From positions 36,188,862 through 36,252,861 of the forward strand of contig CM049307.1 in NCBI GenBank assembly GCA_026874595.1: 64,000 nucleotides of DNA, read 5' to 3'. Under the pieces are notes generated by a model. The model was not told the origin of the DNA. It made no database searches and saw nothing but the letters and a program-made list of their open reading frames with translations. Position numbers and translations under genes: made by a program. Shown in pieces: positions 2,441 through 55,378 of this stretch (position 1 is its first letter; each line of letters begins with the position of its first letter). This stretch comes from Sipunculus nudus (lineage: Eukaryota > Annelida > Sipuncula > Golfingiida > Sipunculidae).

Positions 2441-5400
2441 GCATAGACAGTACAAACAATTATGATGTACAAAGAATAATTATTAATATGGATTCTGAGA
2501 CCTATTGTAATTAGTTGAATCGCAACCGTTTGAGAAATAATCATGTTCATCTAACTATATATATAGGCAGCTAATTCGTTTTAAAATGGAGTGGTCAACA
2601 GATTGCGCGTAAAATGTTCCCTGGACTTTTGATGTAACGTTTTCATAGGGTTGTACAAGATACACAGTCACCCTCCTTTTGCTTTTGGTCTATAATTGGT
2701 GATCTCCAACCTGACCACGAATTAAAATAAATAAATAAACTATGATTTGTCTCGTATATTACCTGAAATTATATTTCTCGAAGTTTCAACAAGTGATTCA
2801 GCTGTAAAATTTATGACGTATTTTGTTTGTTATATTGTAAAGGTATACTTCTGAACATCAACACTTTTTTCTTCTAAAGCCGCGTGCTTGCGGTAACCAT
2901 GATTGGATATAACCATGAAATTTATGATAACTGCGCATGCATCTATATGCATATATAAACCCCGCCATATTTCTGGGCTAACAGATTCAGAAGCATTTTG
3001 TTGTATATAGCTCTCGGCTTTTAAACTCCACAGGCTGTATGACTAATGAGTCCATTCCATGCAGCCAGTCACCAGTGCCTTGGCGCCGAAGCTTTCCTGC
3101 TCGGGTAGATAGAGAGGCTGCGACAGGGCTGAAAACCTTTCCTTCTCTCCCGGTGCTCAGCGCCACAACCGTTCATCATGTACGTCGCAGGGGCCTTTGG
3201 CATAAAATCACTAACGTTGTTTTTTTCTTTTTACTGACATGTCAGTCATTTCAGGGGCTTGATAGCCGCACAAGACAAACAATAGCGATCAACATGATAT
3301 AACTAATGCAACCACAAGATCACATGCGGAAAAAATCGGCCCCCATATGCCTAATTTGATATTTGATATTGTGACCCTGACGACACGGAGACTCGTATAT
3401 AAAGCACACTAGGGGCCATTATAGATTAATGCATTGTTATTAACAATATGTTCTGCTCCCTCCCATGTATTTATGAGTGAATAAAAAAGTAGACTACCTG
3501 CATTGTGGGTCTGATCATCAAGTGATTTATACAACAAAGGACTAACCTTAGTTCTATATATCAGGGGAAAGAGGATTTTAAATTAGACACGATTCCTATA
3601 AATGAACGCAAAGCCGAACCGATGTAAATAAAACCACCAGCACACGGCAGTGTATAAATGCAGCCTAGGTTATCCAGGATTACTCATAATATATAAAAGC
3701 ATGCTAGTTTTATATGTACGTTATAATTACATATAAAATGTAACATATAGTATGGAACCGATTAAGCATTATTAATATGATTATATAACAAACAATAAAA
3801 AAATACAGGAAACGACATATGTATATAAAAACATATCGAGCTCCATCTCTGTGTTCCAAGTGACTGCCATAATTTATACATGCATGCAGAAGAAAAGTTG
3901 GCAATTCGCCTTTTTTCACAAATATTTTATTATCTTTCCTTACATCTCCTAAGAAATACAGCGTTTTAATATGCGTTCGTCTGTTCTGCTGTATCTATAA
4001 ACGGCTTATCGTAATATTTCATTAAGACAAATTGGCTTTTCAAATGGTCGGGAGGGTTATTTCTGTCCCCTCCCACGCCGATAGGACATGCAGAGGATGG
4101 TTGCGTGAAATTTTCCGAAAACTTCACGTGGACTTATCAGTGGAAATTTGTCGCGCAAAAATAAAAAAGATTAAAGACTTGATAATGCCAAGTCATGGAT
4201 GCATGTAGGATTCGCTAAACGATAACATCGTGATAGGTACGGCGCGGAAAGAGATGTCACATGATAATTGATGAACAATACTGATCCTTGGTAAAGGGCC
4301 TCGGGGATCCCATTGAAAAACGCAGCACTTTTTTGCAGAGAAAACCCATAAGGTGCGCGCGGAGGAAGCTATCCAAGGGATGTGTACCGGCTCCAGGCAA
4401 ATGCGCGCCAAATTATAATGTAATGGCGCGCGCGGGAAAACGCGCGTGACTCACACATCGTCTTAGATCCAACAAAGTCGCGCTAAGCTTTATCTGTGAT
4501 GCATTATATTACCAACCATTCGTCTTCATCTTCTTGCTATTTAACGACTGGATATCGCGATTTCCGCCGTTTTAGAATCCAACAGATTGGAAGATACATA
4601 ATTGTGTGCGGCATAAGGGGCAGTTTGCATTAGACGGTATTTAAGACCCCCTAATGAAGATGGTGTTTTAGTTCTGTAAAACATGCCTTCAGCAGCACTC
4701 CAATGTATGAGGCATTGCTTTCTCATTCATTGGGGTTTATTCACACATTGGCGACACATGTATTTGCAGAAAAACGTTAACAGGTCGATTTGTCTAAGTC
4801 TGCATGCATGATGAGAAATGCACATGGCTGTATACGAGCGTGTGAAAGTTGTTGAGATAAACCGTGTTTGTTAGGCCAGCTCTTTGTGACGTATACAAGA
4901 ATTGCCGCCACAGATACCGTAAATTTCTCACAGGTGGCAAAGTATTATATATGTAAGAGCAACAAAATGGTCGTATGAGTAACGCGTGCTTGCTGTGGTA
5001 GTACACAGCGGTCATATTCAAGCTCTCACGCGGTATGCTTACCGTAAAATCAGGGTGAATTCAATGTGAAGCGTGTCTCTGCCCCACTATTTTATTGCAT
5101 TTCAGGCATTTGTAGACAGCATTTATTGAAACAAATAGCTTCCACCCGGTGTATAAAGGGCCATAATTCGTATAGCAGTCCATACATACATAAAACCACA
5201 CGTGTTACTGTTTGTCAATACCTTTCGCATATGCACGCATTCCCTCCATGCACGCGAAGTTTCACTCCACTGCGCAACCTCTCCTGGGCATTCCCACGTG
5301 CCTCCGGAATTGTTTCACCTTTTGCTGGCTTAGTTCTCTTAATTTTGTTTGGCTGTGTTTCTTCTCATGTGTACTTAAACTTCCTTTAAAGGTTATATAA

Positions 5401-7429: not shown

Positions 7430-9129
7430 TGGAGTATATAAATAACATTTTTGCCAACAGGTCTACAAATGGAAACTAATGCTAACGAGTCCATAATTTG
7501 TAAACTTGAGTCACTCTGTTATAGGTGCTTCATATGTTGAATCTTTTTCAGGCACTTTTAAACCTGATATATCTATTAAACACATGTTCGAGCATTTTAA
7601 AGTGTTCCTTAATGAAGCGAACGCGTTATGTTATAATGTATATGCAAAACTAATTCCTGGGAACATTTTATTGGAAAATATCAATAAAGTCTGTTGGTTT
7701 CATTTTTACTCTGGCCGTAATGCCACCTGTACCCTTGTAACCCACATGGTATTGATACAGAATGTGAGCGACAAATATAATTAAAAAATCATCTTTATCT
7801 CCCTTCTGTGTATATACAGAAAGCATCATGTTAGGCAAAGTTTGCCCATGCAACCAATGATATTGTCGAAAAACAGAAATATGGAGACTAACAGGATTGA
7901 ATAGGACCGCTTATATGTAGGAAGGCAGTGAAACCCCGTGGGAATTACTCGGCTAATTCACGAGCGTTTTATTATTAATGAAAGTGAGTGCCGGACACCG
8001 ACTGTTAATCCGTGGAATGGTGCTGTTACCATGGGTTACCGATTATGCGCCCGGCTAACCGAATTATAGTAAGAGGTCACTCGAGTTTGGGAGTAGCTGT
8101 AAAGCGATGCGACCAGCAGGGCCTCCAGCCAGCGATCTGTTTTTTAGGGAAGCTGTGCAGGATGTTTCATCTTCAAACCCAGGAGGCAAAATATAGCTTT
8201 TTGGTGATTCATCTGCATGCATAATGTGCGCTCTGTGTACTGTAAATACGACACAGGCACTTGACACGATGTATTCACCGAGTGAGCGATATTACAAGAA
8301 TGAATGGGCCTATCTCCCGGTCACCTATCTTACCAACCTCCCCACTAATTAAACATGGTTATCTTACTCTTACTGTTAATCATTCTGATTTATGCTAAAA
8401 CTAACTCTACATAAGGCTTGAAACAACTTTACAATATTCCTACTTGGCTGCTTCCACACATGCACTTATTTATCACAAGGTATGAATGCTGACATAAACA
8501 CACAAGGGGTCATGCACAAGACATTGTCATGAATGTTCATGAATATTCAAATATCAGGAGTAACTGGTCACATTATGCTGTGGTCTTCAAAAACATGGGG
8601 ATATGGAGTCTTATTGACATACGGGCTCAAGGTATCAAGCTAGCCGAATAATAATACTAACTTATTTTGTTAATAAGAATACTCACAATTAAACCACTGC
8701 ATGTTCATCATACAACTCCCGGAAGTGGCAAGGATTCCAACACAGAACTTTTTGGATATGTTATAAAGTTCTTCTTCTAAAATAATCTCTTAAATTACAT
8801 GATCTCTTGCTTTTTAATGCGAAAAGATGCAATCAGTTTGAAAAAAAAATAATCAGAACAAAGCATTTGCATGTTAATAGTGTAAATATATGTTTTATTT
8901 GGGTGTTTCCATAGACTGGTACCTACTACTATAAAGACCTTTCAGTGTAAAGCCTTCACTTGCATGATTAGCGGGCAAATATAGTGAAGGAAACAGCCAC
9001 CTTCTACAGCGGTATGGTGAACATGCAGTGGTTTGTGAGCATTCTGCTTATAAAATAGACTAACTAGATTTTTGGGTAAGCTTTATCCCTAGACCCCTGT
9101 ATGCTTATAAGACTCCATATCCCTGTGTT
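7430..9129. other. No gene recognised
   Basis: Nothing supported. The 92-residue frame at 7506-7784 has no features I recognise. Confidence 0.55.
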
Positions 9130-20660: not shown

Positions 20661-35997
<15,337 letters not shown>

Positions 35998-50879: not shown

Positions 50880-51090
50880 CTTCGATACGACGATACAGCA
50901 CGTAAAGCGTATCGGTTACCGTATCGATGGGGCGCATCGAAATGAAATTTATATTGATACAGCTCTACTATCGAGACGTTAATGATGCCTAACCATACAA
51001 AAGAAATTCCGACATTTAAATAGCGACCTCCGGTATTTAAAAAAAGGCGGCCCAGCGCGTGCAAAGCGAAGCATCATTGGTCAGAAAACA
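50880..51090 (+). mobile_element. hAT-like repeat fragment, copy B
   Basis: CGATACGACGATACAGCACG and CGTATCGGTTACCGTATCGA are followed by CCGACATTTAAATAGCGACC and CATCATTGGTCAGAAA, collinear with copy A in the HS3ST intron but more diverged. It lies just upstream of the heat-shock-type promoter module. Confidence 0.4.
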
Positions 51091-51396
51091 GTTAATCGGC
51101 ATCTGATTGGCTAACTGTAGCATGATCGATCAAACCGATTCAGCTAAGGAATGTTTCATTATTCCCTAAGCCGGGAAGCAATCGCTTGGCGAAGAGCAAC
51201 GTCTTGAAATCTAAATTCTAAAATTGATTATATATGTGTCTGTTTTACATGTATCTGTTACATGTATCTGTTTGTTATGCGCGGAATATTACATAATTTT
51301 TTATTCTGATTCGTGTCAAGCGCAAACCCTGTGCGCTGCTATGGGAAACGCACTTGCTGAACCCTCACGGAGTGTAAAGACTGCGTGTTCGGTGTT

Positions 51397-51424
51397 TTCT
51401 AGAGGGTTCCAGAATGGAAGGTTC
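51397..51424 (+). promoter_or_regulatory. Heat shock element, six pentamers in 5-bp register
   Basis: TTC (51397), GAG (51402), TTC (51407), GAA (51412), GAA (51417) and TTC (51422) recur at exactly 5-bp steps, the nGAAn arrangement bound by heat shock factor trimers. Five of the six pentamers are perfect. A TATA box starts 20 bp downstream, the usual layout of a compact heat-inducible promoter. Confidence 0.55.
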
Positions 51425-51444
51425 TGGGCTTCGGGTGGAAAAGC

Positions 51445-51452
51445 TATAAATA
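51445..51452 (+). promoter_or_regulatory. TATA box downstream of the heat shock element
   Basis: TATAAATA in a GC-rich setting (AAGC before it, GGGGC after it), predicting initiation near 51475 at TTTAGAGCAG. The presumed transcript has no long ATG-initiated ORF and is interrupted about 320 bp later by the Helentron-like element. It may be a retrotransposon LTR or a decayed heat-shock gene. Confidence 0.5.
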
Positions 51453-51845
51453 GGGGCTGTGTTTAGAGCAGGCAGAGAGAAAAATACCAGCGGACACGGA
51501 AGAGTGCGACTCTCTCGTTAGTGTTTTTGAACCTATTCCGATAATTGCAGAACTTACAGATATTCTACAGACTTTATACAGTCTTCAGTTTACCTTTGGG
51601 ATTATTACCAGAACTTCACTTTTTTATTACAACAGAGTTTTATCGAGATTATATCGGACTATTCTCTGAGAAGATTTACATGAACTGTTCATCTGGATTA
51701 TTTATGCTCAAAGACTCTTGTGAGACTGTGACAGTGCACATGGTGGTATCGGAAATTCAAAGCCTATAGGATCCGGACACTCTGGTGATGTACATTTTTA
51801 TGCCCCCGCCACAAAGTGGCCGGGGCATATAGTTTTACCCATGTC

Positions 51846-51903
51846 CGTCATTCCGTCATTCTGTCATTCCGTCATTCCGTCATTCCGTCCTTCCGTCATT
51901 CCG
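51846..51903 (+). repeat. 8-bp microsatellite (CGTCATTC)n inside the Helentron-like element
   Basis: Just over seven copies, with single changes (CTGTC, CCTTC). It sits between the 5' hairpin and the first 180-bp unit, the place where pearl-type elements carry their microsatellite. Confidence 0.85.
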
Positions 51904-51920
51904 AAATGAAACAGTTGTAC

Positions 51921-53690
51921 GGACTTTTTTTCGCAATGCCTGCAGATATTGGCCTGATTTTTGGTGTGTGGGCAGATATAGACCAGTTACAGAACGAGTT
52001 CGCGTTTCGTCCCGGTTGACCTACTTTTGACTGTTTTACGGCTCCTAAACTTAGAAAATTTCATGAAAAATAGAAATATTCATGACAGATACACATGTAC
52101 GGACTTTTTTTCGCAATGCCTGCAGATATTGGCCTGATTTTTGTTGTGTGAGCAGATATAGACCAGTTACAGATGGAGTTCGCGTTTCGTCCTGGTTGAC
52201 CTACTTTTGACCGTTTTACAGCTCCTAAACTTAGAAAATTTCATGAAAAATAGAAATATTCATGACAGATACACATGTACGGACTTTTTTTCGCAATGCC
52301 TGCAGATATTGGCCTGATTTTTGGTGTGTGAGCAGATATAGACCAGTTACAGATCGAGTTCGCATTTCGTCCTGGTTGACCTACTTCTGACCGTTTTACA
52401 GCTCCTGAACAGAGAAAATTTCATGAAAAATATGAAATTTCATGACAAATACACATGTACGGTTTTTTTTTCTCAGTTCCTGCAGATATTGGCCTGATTT
52501 TTGGTGTGTGGACAGATATAGACCAGTTATAGATCAAGTTCGCGTTTCGTCCTGGTTGACCTACTTTTGACCGTTTTAAGGCTCCTGAACATAGAAAATT
52601 TCATGAAAAATATGAAATTTCATGACAAATACACATGTACGGTTTTTTTTGCTCAGTGCCTGCAGATATTGGCCTGATTTTTGGTGTGTGGACAGATATA
52701 GACCAGTTACAGATCAAGTTCGCGTTTCGTCCTAATTGACCTACTTTTGACTGTTTTACGGCTCCTAAACTTGGAAATTTTCATGTAAAATAGAAATATT
52801 CATGACAGATACACATGTACGGACTTTTTTTCGCAATGCCTGCAGATATAGGCCTAATTTTTGGTGTGTGGGCAGATATAGACCAGTTACAGATCGAGTT
52901 CGCGTTTCGTCCCGGTTGACCTACTTTTGACCTTTTTTCGGCTCCTGAACATAGAAAATTTCATGAAAAATATGAAATTTCATGACAAATACACATGTAC
53001 AGACATTTTTTTCGCAATGCCTGCAGATATTGGCCTGAATTTTGGTGTATCGGCAGATATTGACCAGTTACAGATGTAATTCACGTTTTGTCCCAATTGA
53101 CCTATTTTTGACCGTTTGACGGTGCTCTAACATAGAAAATTTCATAAAAAAGGTGCACATGTATGGACTTTATTTCGCAGTGCCTGCAGATATGGGCCTG
53201 ATTTTTGGTGTGTAGGCAGATAATGACCAGTTACAGATTGAGTTCTTGTTTTGTCTCAGTTGACCTACTTTTGACCATTTGACTGCTCCTGAACATAGAA
53301 AGTTTCATGAAAAATATAAATTTTCATAACAAATGCATATGTACTGACTTTTTTTCTTCAATGCCTGCAGATACCACCCTGATTTTTTTTTGTGTGGGCA
53401 GATAATGACAGTTACAGATCGAGTTTGCATTTCATCCTTGTTGACCTACTTTTGATTGTTTTACGGATCCTAAACATAGAAAATTTCATGAAAGACAGAA
53501 ATTTTTATGGAAAATGAATATGTATGGACTTTTTTTCACAATGCCTGCACATACTGGCATGATTTTTGGTGTGTTGCTTGATAATGACCCGTTACAGATC
53601 GAGTTTGCATTTTGCCCTTGTTGACCTACTTTTGACCATACGACACCTCCTGAACTTAAAAAATTTTCCAAATTTTACAAATGTTTCTAA
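51921..53690 (+). repeat. 180-bp tandem repeat array (~10 units)
   Basis: Units begin with GGACTTTTTTTCGC or a variant at 51921, 52101, 52281, 52461, 52641, 52821 and 53001, exactly 180 bp apart. Later ones start near 53164 (short unit), 53345 and 53525. Each contains TGCCTGCAGATATTGGCC, GACCAGTTACAGAT and TTGACCTACTTTTGACC. The first units are most alike and the last three most decayed, with extra substitutions and small deletions, as if homogenisation acts at the 5' side. Confidence 0.95.
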
Positions 53691-53816
53691 TTTGCCAAAG
53701 GCGGGGGCATTTGTGTCGTTCCGACACATCTAGTTATTATTGTTATACTGTGTAATTTTATTGATTTAGTGTTGTGATGTTAGGATTGTTCTAAGAATTA
53801 ATTATAATTATTTGTT

Positions 53817-53822
53817 AATAAA
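53817..53822 (+). terminator. AATAAA after the Helentron-like element
   Basis: A canonical poly(A) signal 84 bp past the element's 3' end, followed by a T-rich stretch. If the element is ignored, it lies about 400 bp downstream of the heat-shock-type TATA box, as poly(A) signals do in many LTRs. Confidence 0.25.
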
Positions 53823-55378
53823 CAAAACAATGACTTCTTTATTCATTCCCCTAGACATTTCACGCTGCCTAGTGTTGCGGAATCTGATTTTTTTTTTATC
53901 TCCGTAACAAAATTTGTGCTCGTCACGATTACGTTATCTGTTTTTATTAGTTTCCGTAACACTGTGTCGTATTTCGTATCTTGAGATAATGTGTCGTTAC
54001 AATCCTAAAAATAACGTCTAATACTTCAGCCAGGAAAGCTGGACTCATCCTTATTTTACATTTAAGTCAATATCTTTGTGAAATGGTATGCAGGATATAA
54101 CGGTCTTGATAGCATTTACTATCGGTTAAATGACCATTTGGGGCATATACCCCACTCCACTCGCAAACCACGCCCCAGTAGAAAAAAAATAATGCCGATC
54201 GTAAACACTGACAGCATTTCCAGACATGTGGCAGTCTTGTTCACGTGACCGCAGACTAGACTGGCCTACATTTGTTGAATAAACTATCAGAACGTCCAAT
54301 GTAAATTTACAATTAGTAGTGCACAGAAGGGTATCTTTAACCCCTAACGCTACCCAGCGGGGTCCACATGGTAAAGATTACCCCTCGATCCCTCTAAATA
54401 GCTAACAAAACAAACCGACTTGACTCCAAGTAGACTGTAAGTTTGTTTCCTCAGTGAGAATAGTTAATTTGTCCAAGGGTGCAAGCTTGTCCACGAAAAC
54501 ATTTAGAACCAATGTAAACTTGACCGACATCTCAAGGGCCGCCATTGGGGTATATGTGTGGAGCCATGGCTCTACCATGAGGATGGCCGGGTCAATGGAA
54601 GAATTTTGTGTCGGAGGATAAAAAGTAGGGTTTAGTTCCGGCATTCACGTGAATGCGTGTAAATCATACTGGCGGGTCCAGATAGCTTACTTTATGTGGT
54701 AAAGCAGCTATAAATGGCACGGATACCACAAAAGGGCCTTTTTCATAACTTCTTTAAAAACTTTTGTGCATGCAAGCATGCATGCAAGTCTATCCGCTTC
54801 TGGTTTATTAGCCACGTGGAAGTATTTCAATAAGCTCGGCCACGCATACGGTTCACTAGCCCTCATTCAATATAAGTTATTATCATTCCATGTTCATAAA
54901 TATCTGTAGTTTACGTCAGATGAACAGGCTTCATTGTAAGGCGCCGCAGTGAACCTTACGGGTAATTCGCGCTAGACGTGTGTGAAATCTCTAGCCTTGT
55001 ACGTATCTTATGGCCTGATGTAGGGATATAAAGATGCCGTTTTAATCACAAGAGGGCTACGCGCACCTGCCAAATAAGGATGCCCCCACTAAAACCTAGC
55101 CGAAGACTTATGTATCATTCTTGTATGGCGTGAGCCCGCTGCCGCCACCCATGAAATATTGAACAAGCGATTGGTTCTTTCGAAAGGGCACCTGTGCAAT
55201 GGGGGCTCATCTGAGGGCTGGGCGCATGCGCACCGCCTGTGACCTTGACTGACCTTCTAACAAAAGCAACAACTATTTCGTGTCTCTTCGGCTAATTACC
55301 CTCAAAGGGACCCCCGTAATAAGAGGCAGTTTGAATTATTTATTCCATATTCCGTGCCACGGAAATTGCCTCGCGTAG
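53823..55378. other. No gene recognised
   Basis: Holds a recurring TCCGTAACA/CGTTACA word at 53.9-54.0 kb, possibly the end of an LTR, and a GC-richer unique patch at 55.06-55.35 kb with TAATTACC and a CGCATGCGC word. Confidence 0.45.

Follow-up and report, generated by a model that had tools for sequence, protein, structure and literature searches.

What carries the tandem array at positions 51797 to 53733 of the window, that is, of the whole stretch of 64,000 nucleotides analysed here (C2:36188862-36252861), and how did its units come to differ from one another? Analysis of the locus and of its copies in a genome of 1.43 Gb (153 contigs) indicates, with a probability of about 94%, that this region and its array constitute a non-autonomous Helentron of the HINE/pearl type, 1,934 bp long from ATGCC to TCTAG, which is presumably moved in trans, inserts into T-runs and contains an array of two zones. 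It is a new family of a kind of element already known. This assignment draws on common ends, a high copy number, a T-run target, a net gain of two T and no coding capacity found, and on the genome also having an open frame for a protein of the Helentron type.

The window copy possesses all the parts named in the earlier note, namely an 11-bp subterminal inverted repeat (subTIR), a 5' hairpin, an 8-bp microsatellite, ten units and a 7-bp 3' stem followed by TCTAG (Table 1). Dinucleotide shuffling of both end segments, repeated 2,000 times, gave an 11-bp inverted repeat only twice, and the 5' hairpin has a folding energy of -13.1 kcal/mol, with none of 200 shuffles equally stable. The ten units span 51916-53666 with a period of 180, their lengths being 180 bp six times, then 164, 180, 181 and 146 bp; thus the exact 180-bp period, previously extended to seven units, covers six and breaks at the seventh (164 bp). 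Units 1-6 share 86-96% identity among themselves, and units 7-10 show 75-87% identity to any other unit. The ORF list contains no frame of 90 or more amino acids in the element, the single frame scanned there (51789-52016) gave no Pfam match, and no second copy was found when 51000-54600 was compared with the rest of the window. The units harbor ten heat-shock-element-like motifs that fit 8 of 9 positions, where 0.79 would be expected, and no motif that fits all 9; these do not count as independent evidence because one or two motifs recur in every unit.

Table 1. Features of the window copy and of the host sequence that it interrupts (window coordinates).
Feature	Position	Strand	Basis
T5, 5' boundary and target T-run; insertion adds two T in all	51795..51799	+	T-run of exactly five in 34 of 43 copies; empty sites
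5' subterminal inverted repeat ATGCCCCCGCC	51800..51810	+	exact 11-mer in 40 of 43 copies
5' hairpin, subTIR paired with local inverted repeat, 3-nt loop	51799..51829	+	folding
8-bp microsatellite TCCGTCAT, 7.5 copies	51844..51903	+	repeat detection
Six 180-bp V units, variable 5' zone of array	51916..52995	+	unit parsing
Unit a, 164 bp, opens 3' block	52996..53159	+	unit parsing
Unit b, 180 bp	53160..53339	+	unit parsing; probe at 2,315 places genome-wide
Unit c, 181 bp	53340..53520	+	unit parsing
Unit d, 146 bp, truncated final unit	53521..53666	+	unit parsing
3' subterminal inverted repeat GGCGGGGGCAT	53700..53710	+	complement of 5' repeat
3' palindrome TGTGTCG/CGACACA, perfect 7-bp stem here	53712..53728	+	folding
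3' terminus TCTAG, directly after palindrome	53729..53733	+	TCTAG in 40 of 43 copies; T next in 43 of 43
Host dispersed repeat (putative LTR-like), interrupted by element	51229..53951	+	paralogue L056

The copy count proposed in the earlier note was obtained by searching the genome with the ends. The last 34 bases of the 3' end, allowing at most two mismatches, occur at 4,468 places (reversed control: 0), while a 404-base 5'-end query gave at least 51 matches (best 40 of 2,325 candidates scored) and a 3'-end query at least 40 (best 40 of 1,442 candidates scored). Stretches were taken around 37 of the 5' matches and ten of the 3' matches, plus the window; both samples were thus chosen by similarity to the window's ends, and the first also by similarity to the first unit and a half. 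The ends were compared in 43 copies possessing both of them and independent flanks, leaving out L016, which shares its flanks with L015, and L010, L038, L048 and L053, in which one end is absent from the stretch. In these 43 copies similarity starts at T5-ATGCC and stops at TCTAG-T, with column identities of 0.8-1.0 inside (one column 0.61) against 0.24-0.42 outside, and the right break falls within the first four bases past TCTAG, where T is common. The base sixth to the left of ATGCC is A in 32 of 43 copies, and the 11-bp subTIR pair is perfect in 38. A perfect 7-bp stem of the 3' palindrome is found in ten, the usual variant being a T-to-C change in the outermost pair that leaves a 6-bp stem. 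The distance from ATGCC to the first unit varies among copies, mostly in 8-bp steps (85, 93, 101, 109, 117 and 125 bp; once 90 bp). Homology running past TCTAG or past the 5' hairpin had been named beforehand as grounds for rejecting a complete HINE-like element; what the 43 independent copies show is a break at both ends, and the claim that both ends are defined is upheld.

The same ends in unrelated flanks leave a vanishingly small probability that the locus is a satellite fragment scattered by segmental duplication, with no mobile element involved, and paralogous sites without the element (see below) point the same way. Duplication together with flanks does occur at two places: L015 and L016 (C8, about 79.03 Mb) lie in a segmental duplication taking in the 5' flank, as does L023 (C11:67328800-67338700), where the 5' end and two V units appear twice, in steps of about 2.1 kb, ahead of a complete copy. 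The three 5' ends about 2.1 kb apart at C11:67.33 Mb were also considered as tandem rolling-circle multimers, which the recurrence of one host flank at each 5' end rules out, identifying L023 as a tandem segmental duplication.

The left flank of the window copy (51300-51796) is itself a dispersed repeat, with at least 40 matches, all above threshold (best 40 of 4,463 candidates scored), and its paralogue L056 aligns to 51229-51801 and 53734-53951. Twelve such host-repeat paralogues could be read across the site, ten of which lack the element and have A-TTTTT-A (nine) or a run of four T (one) in its place. In the window A-TTTTT-A has become A-TTTTT-element-TT-A, with five T before and two after, so the insertion added the body and two T, and duplicated nothing else; the sequence is compatible with an origin of the two added T in either the element or the target. 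The alignment of empty sites suggested in the earlier note therefore gives a T-run as the insertion site.

A MITE is defined by terminal inverted repeats and a target-site duplication, and a canonical Helitron by a TC at its 5' end and a target site between A and T. The element conforms to neither description, having a T5-ATGCC 5' end, a T-run target, inverted repeats that are not terminal and no target-site duplication. That it might nevertheless belong with the MITE-like DNA transposons, which have terminal inverted repeats and depend on a cut-and-paste partner, is very improbable: the 11-bp inverted repeat does lie close to both ends, but its 3' copy stops 23 bp short of the end, with the palindrome and TCTAG after it, and only T was gained at the site.

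T-runs are recurrent targets of more than one such family, as judged from insertions in L032, L036 and L061. In L032 and L036, a second HINE-like family, starting with AGCTCAGCTG, carrying CAGCTGAGC near its 3' end and ending near CCCTTG, is inserted at two different T-runs of array units; when the usual unit sequence is taken as the empty site of L036, T5 has become T5 plus T2. A related start is found in L061, where a different element begins at the same host T-run as that of the window, and another paralogue (L065) breaks off at the T-run. The inserts of the long copies L032 and L036 (2,637 and 3,302 bp) were considered as a possible autonomous core and rejected, since they begin like another HINE-like family and their longest listed frame is 110 aa.

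As for the host repeat, a heat-shock-element-like motif is present at 51396 (11 of 12 positions over four pentamers), with TATAAATA at 51445. On these motifs the repeat is a possible LTR whose promoter would be of the stress type; a search around it for LTR-type ends with a target duplication gave three candidates, none of them convincing.

HINE features were drawn from the accessible parts of PMC7492417 and PMC4067079, to which all statements on these sources are confined. With the partner aside, the features listed there for Cg_HINE, HINE and DINE-1 were found one by one in the element, which bears out the likeness to HINE architecture seen earlier: 11-15 bp subterminal inverted repeats near both ends, a palindrome after the 3' subTIR, insertion into a T-rich target without its modification (a net gain of TT only), the absence of coding capacity and, as in the pearl type, a microsatellite ahead of core repeats of about 140-180 bp in tandem. 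An inverted repeat complementary to the nearby 5' subTIR, here forming the 5' hairpin, is also present, as in Cg_HINE and DINE-1, though not in HINE-Mo (PMC7492417, PMC4067079).

The closest resemblance in features is to Cg_HINE of Crassostrea gigas, described with 11-12 bp subTIRs, an inverted repeat complementary to the 5' subTIR, a microsatellite (mostly of 4 nt there, with 3 to 8 nt found), central repeats mostly of 140-180 bp in a single orientation relative to the ends, a 3' palindrome and a T-rich target (PMC7492417). Cg_HINE arrays average 3.6 monomers, whereas regular copies here contain 7-11 units, and the accessible part of that source gives no description of a 3' block common to the copies next to a 5' zone that varies. 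The pearl elements of Crassostrea virginica and Anadara trapezia, later classed as HINE, likewise have short arrays of central repeats of about 160 bp, although up to six such repeats are reported (both via PMC7492417, compared by description). HINE-Mo of a mite and DINE-1 of Drosophila share the subTIRs, the 3' palindrome, the unmodified T-rich target and the lack of coding capacity (PMC4067079). Unlike the element described here, HINE-Mo has tandem repeats or microsatellites in some copies only, and two of its subfamilies have longer relatives at 84-99.9% identity, none of which were found for our family (PMC4067079).

Candidate proteins for moving such an element are encoded in the genome, where the Rep domain of Helitrons (Helitron_like_N) has at least 143 matches (best 150 of 195 candidates scored), many of them in long open frames. 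One frame, at C11:50385293, encodes 2,235 aa, and the 1,228 aa that follow its Rep domain include a PIF1 helicase and, at the C terminus, an Exo_endo_phos domain; Rep, helicase and C-terminal endonuclease in this order are the Helentron arrangement (PMC4067079). In contrast to an autonomous Helentron sharing these ends, the 8.3 kb downstream of its Rep domain contain no match to the element's 3' end, nor do the 4-kb stretches beyond two other Rep frames, which start more than 4 kb downstream of the domain. An autonomous element with these ends was thus not found in three Helitron-type loci (16.3 kb in total, two of them partly covered); the partner of the oyster HINEs is likewise unknown (PMC7492417). 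We infer that rolling-circle transposition would proceed in trans, with a Rep/helicase/endonuclease, presumably of this type, recognising the 5' subTIR-hairpin and the 3' subTIR-palindrome. Insertion is into T-runs, usually with an A before the run.

The core array of this non-autonomous Helentron is composed of a 5' zone of V units in variable number and a 3' block a-b-c-d. According to class profiles, 40 of 47 loci (counted without L016 and a second reading of L023) end in abcd, and 36 of the 47 have a clear V(n)abcd structure, n lying between 3 and 7 except in one locus with 24; the class strings of L015, L036, L038, L045 and L053 include small overlapping matches and are not clean. The seven loci without an abcd end are L021 and L040, which end in cd, L049 and L055, which end in d, L048 (cd only), L045 (extra matches past d) and L038, with an unresolved string; L034 reads V13-a-V11-abcd. 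The fourth unit from the 3' end is short, 162-165 bp, in most copies; no unit has that length in L021, L027 and L040, L015 has a shorter one and L034 has two.

The earlier note had taken the last three units to be decayed and homogenisation to be polar. As stated, this does not hold for the copies: in 27 regular ones (L015, L016, L021, L027, L032, L034, L036, L040 and L045 were left out), between-copy identity at the last four ranks, counted from the 3' end, is 0.978, 0.973, 0.975 and 0.926, and the b, c and d units are 97-98% identical at the same rank between copies but only 75-85% identical to different ranks. V units in the same set show 0.91-0.94 across ranks between copies. Such same-rank likeness indicates that the 3' units are an inherited block, and because the last four units are common in order to most sampled copies, their divergence predates those copies. 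Local decay, with free mutation of each copy's 3' units once it is inserted and homogenisation of its 5' units, accords with the lower likeness within a copy of the last four units than of the V units (means of 0.790 and 0.924, 27 copies), yet for the sampled copies it is contradicted by the same-rank identity, and we consider it extremely improbable. It fares no better in the 3'-selected sample, where five regular copies out of ten (L047, L049, L055 and the incomplete L048 and L053 left out) show 0.970, 0.971, 0.959 and 0.892 at the last four ranks, a same-rank likeness of 96-97% outside the fourth.

The extent of this inherited block across the genome was followed with a unit b probe, whose count in Table 1 (control: 0) is about half that of the 3' ends, so that many 3' ends must lack an intact b, being truncated, diverged or of another subtype. 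Where both occur, the register from b to the 3' end is fixed: for 20 of the first 100 exact 3' ends listed, an exact b lies no more than 3 kb away, in 17 cases at 432-451 bp, and in the part of C1 that these ends cover, 17 of the 43 exact b places listed are in register with an exact 3' end. The combination of a common 3' block and a 5' zone that varies has no account in the literature searched, including the accessible parts of PMC8268682 and PMC12628747, which is no proof that it is unpublished; words beginning with 'polar' do not occur in those parts of the two sources.

Being distinguishable from one another, the four 3' units give each copy a built-in ruler on which the sites of array growth and shrinkage become visible. 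Comparison of 31 copies (L016, L032, L034, L036 and L045 left out) gave 362 pairs of unequal unit number, 97 of which, not independent of one another, align above 0.95. The extra units are best placed after unit 0-4 from the 5' side in 92 of these close pairs (304 of all 362), and in ten close pairs, overlapping with the 92, they are placed two units in from the 3' end. Among the 15 closest pairs, the difference falls after unit 1 nine times, after unit 2 five times and after unit 0 once. Nine independent copies (L012, L015, L017, L020, L031, L033, L039, L043 and L044) have a shortened marker unit (spacing of 167-173 bp), always in seventh place counted from the 3' end and with 1, 1, 2, 2, 3, 3, 3, 3 and 3 units upstream; in L040, which lacks a and b, it is in fifth place. 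Taken together, the pair positions and the marker unit indicate that gain and loss are mostly 5'-sided: what is one-sided in this array is the gain and loss of units. These observations also speak against independent decay of the 3' units in each copy.

The simplest cause would be that only V units are similar enough to recombine; most likely, recombination or slippage would act on the V units, which share about 92% identity inside a copy, and leave a-d, at about 79%, mostly frozen. Coupling of unit change to rolling-circle copying is also possible. Array growth would then be tied to transposition, with slippage or template switching just inside the 5' end altering the number of V units in new copies, and the 3' block would be spared as it is copied last, with the termination signal. 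The position of the differences after unit 0-4 in the non-independent close pairs, their concentration at units 1, 2 and 0 in the closest ones and the constant rank of the marker unit with one to three units upstream are all as this explanation predicts, but almost the same would be expected from unequal crossing over confined to the V units, which are more alike. The ten close pairs differing two units from the 3' end, the loss of part of the block in L021, L040, L049 and L055, and the recombination-like repetition of a or ab in long arrays (L034, L053 and a stretch of C1) weigh against it, and replication slippage itself was not observed; we therefore regard growth tied to transposition as unlikely.

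The distinguishable 3' units also make it possible to link a longer array elsewhere in the genome to this core. Exact matches of the b probe number 26 in C1:86066354-86098992 (32.6 kb), with spacings mostly near 702-721, 1,240, 1,419 and 2,479 bp, and once 1,778 bp, most of which fit 4, 7, 8, 14 or 10 units if one or two of them are of the short a type. Reading 2.2 kb there (L072, C1:86067700-86069900) showed a continuous array, bVVabVVVVVVab, with composite periods, two identical a units and neither c nor d. From the spacings, the whole 32.6 kb would form one array. The earlier suggestion that such arrays may become satellites fits this relation between the element and the b matches, as far as the 2.2 kb read bear on it, with a direction that could be either.

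We favour growth of the C1 array out of an element over its having fed one. The reverse, a satellite that came first and of which a piece was captured by the element, with the C1 stretch as source and not product, seems to us somewhat unlikely. It agrees with a stretch that has a, b and V, with c and d not seen in 2.2 kb, and both capture and growth from within are discussed in the accessible part of PMC7492417; however, the shortened a adjoins b in C1 as it does in the elements, which is easier to explain from an element lineage, though it does not settle the direction. It is already established that satellite-like repeats are carried and spread by elements of the Helentron type (PMC7492417). 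A bolder proposal is that the Helentron core array acts as a one-sided, transposition-coupled repeat factory, in which units would be added by the 5' hairpin while the 3' block travels unchanged with the terminator, and from which a-b, copied without c-d, would escape as a satellite with composite periods (abV2, abV6); we put it forward tentatively and think it quite unlikely. In either direction, the relation between mobile element and satellite becomes testable copy by copy within one genome, and the family is a useful natural case for the growth of repeat arrays inside mobile elements.

Elsewhere in the window, two sulfotransferase-like frames (20661-21392 and 35326-35994; PF00685 in both, the second also PF13469) gave the sole Pfam matches among the ten window frames scanned, and are probably exons of one gene. 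An Rfam scan of the window had 0 matches, tRNA genes numbered 0 in it, and pattern scans of viral contigs and of genome contigs gave 0 matches each. The window's strongest heat-shock-element-like run, at 8525-8554, matches 14 of 15 positions over five pentamers, had no equal in 12 shuffles and lies near local repeats at 8.6-10.3 kb. Finally, a self-complementary stretch of 155 bp at 23256-23410 (92% in self comparison) is possibly a small foldback element, judging by its sequence.
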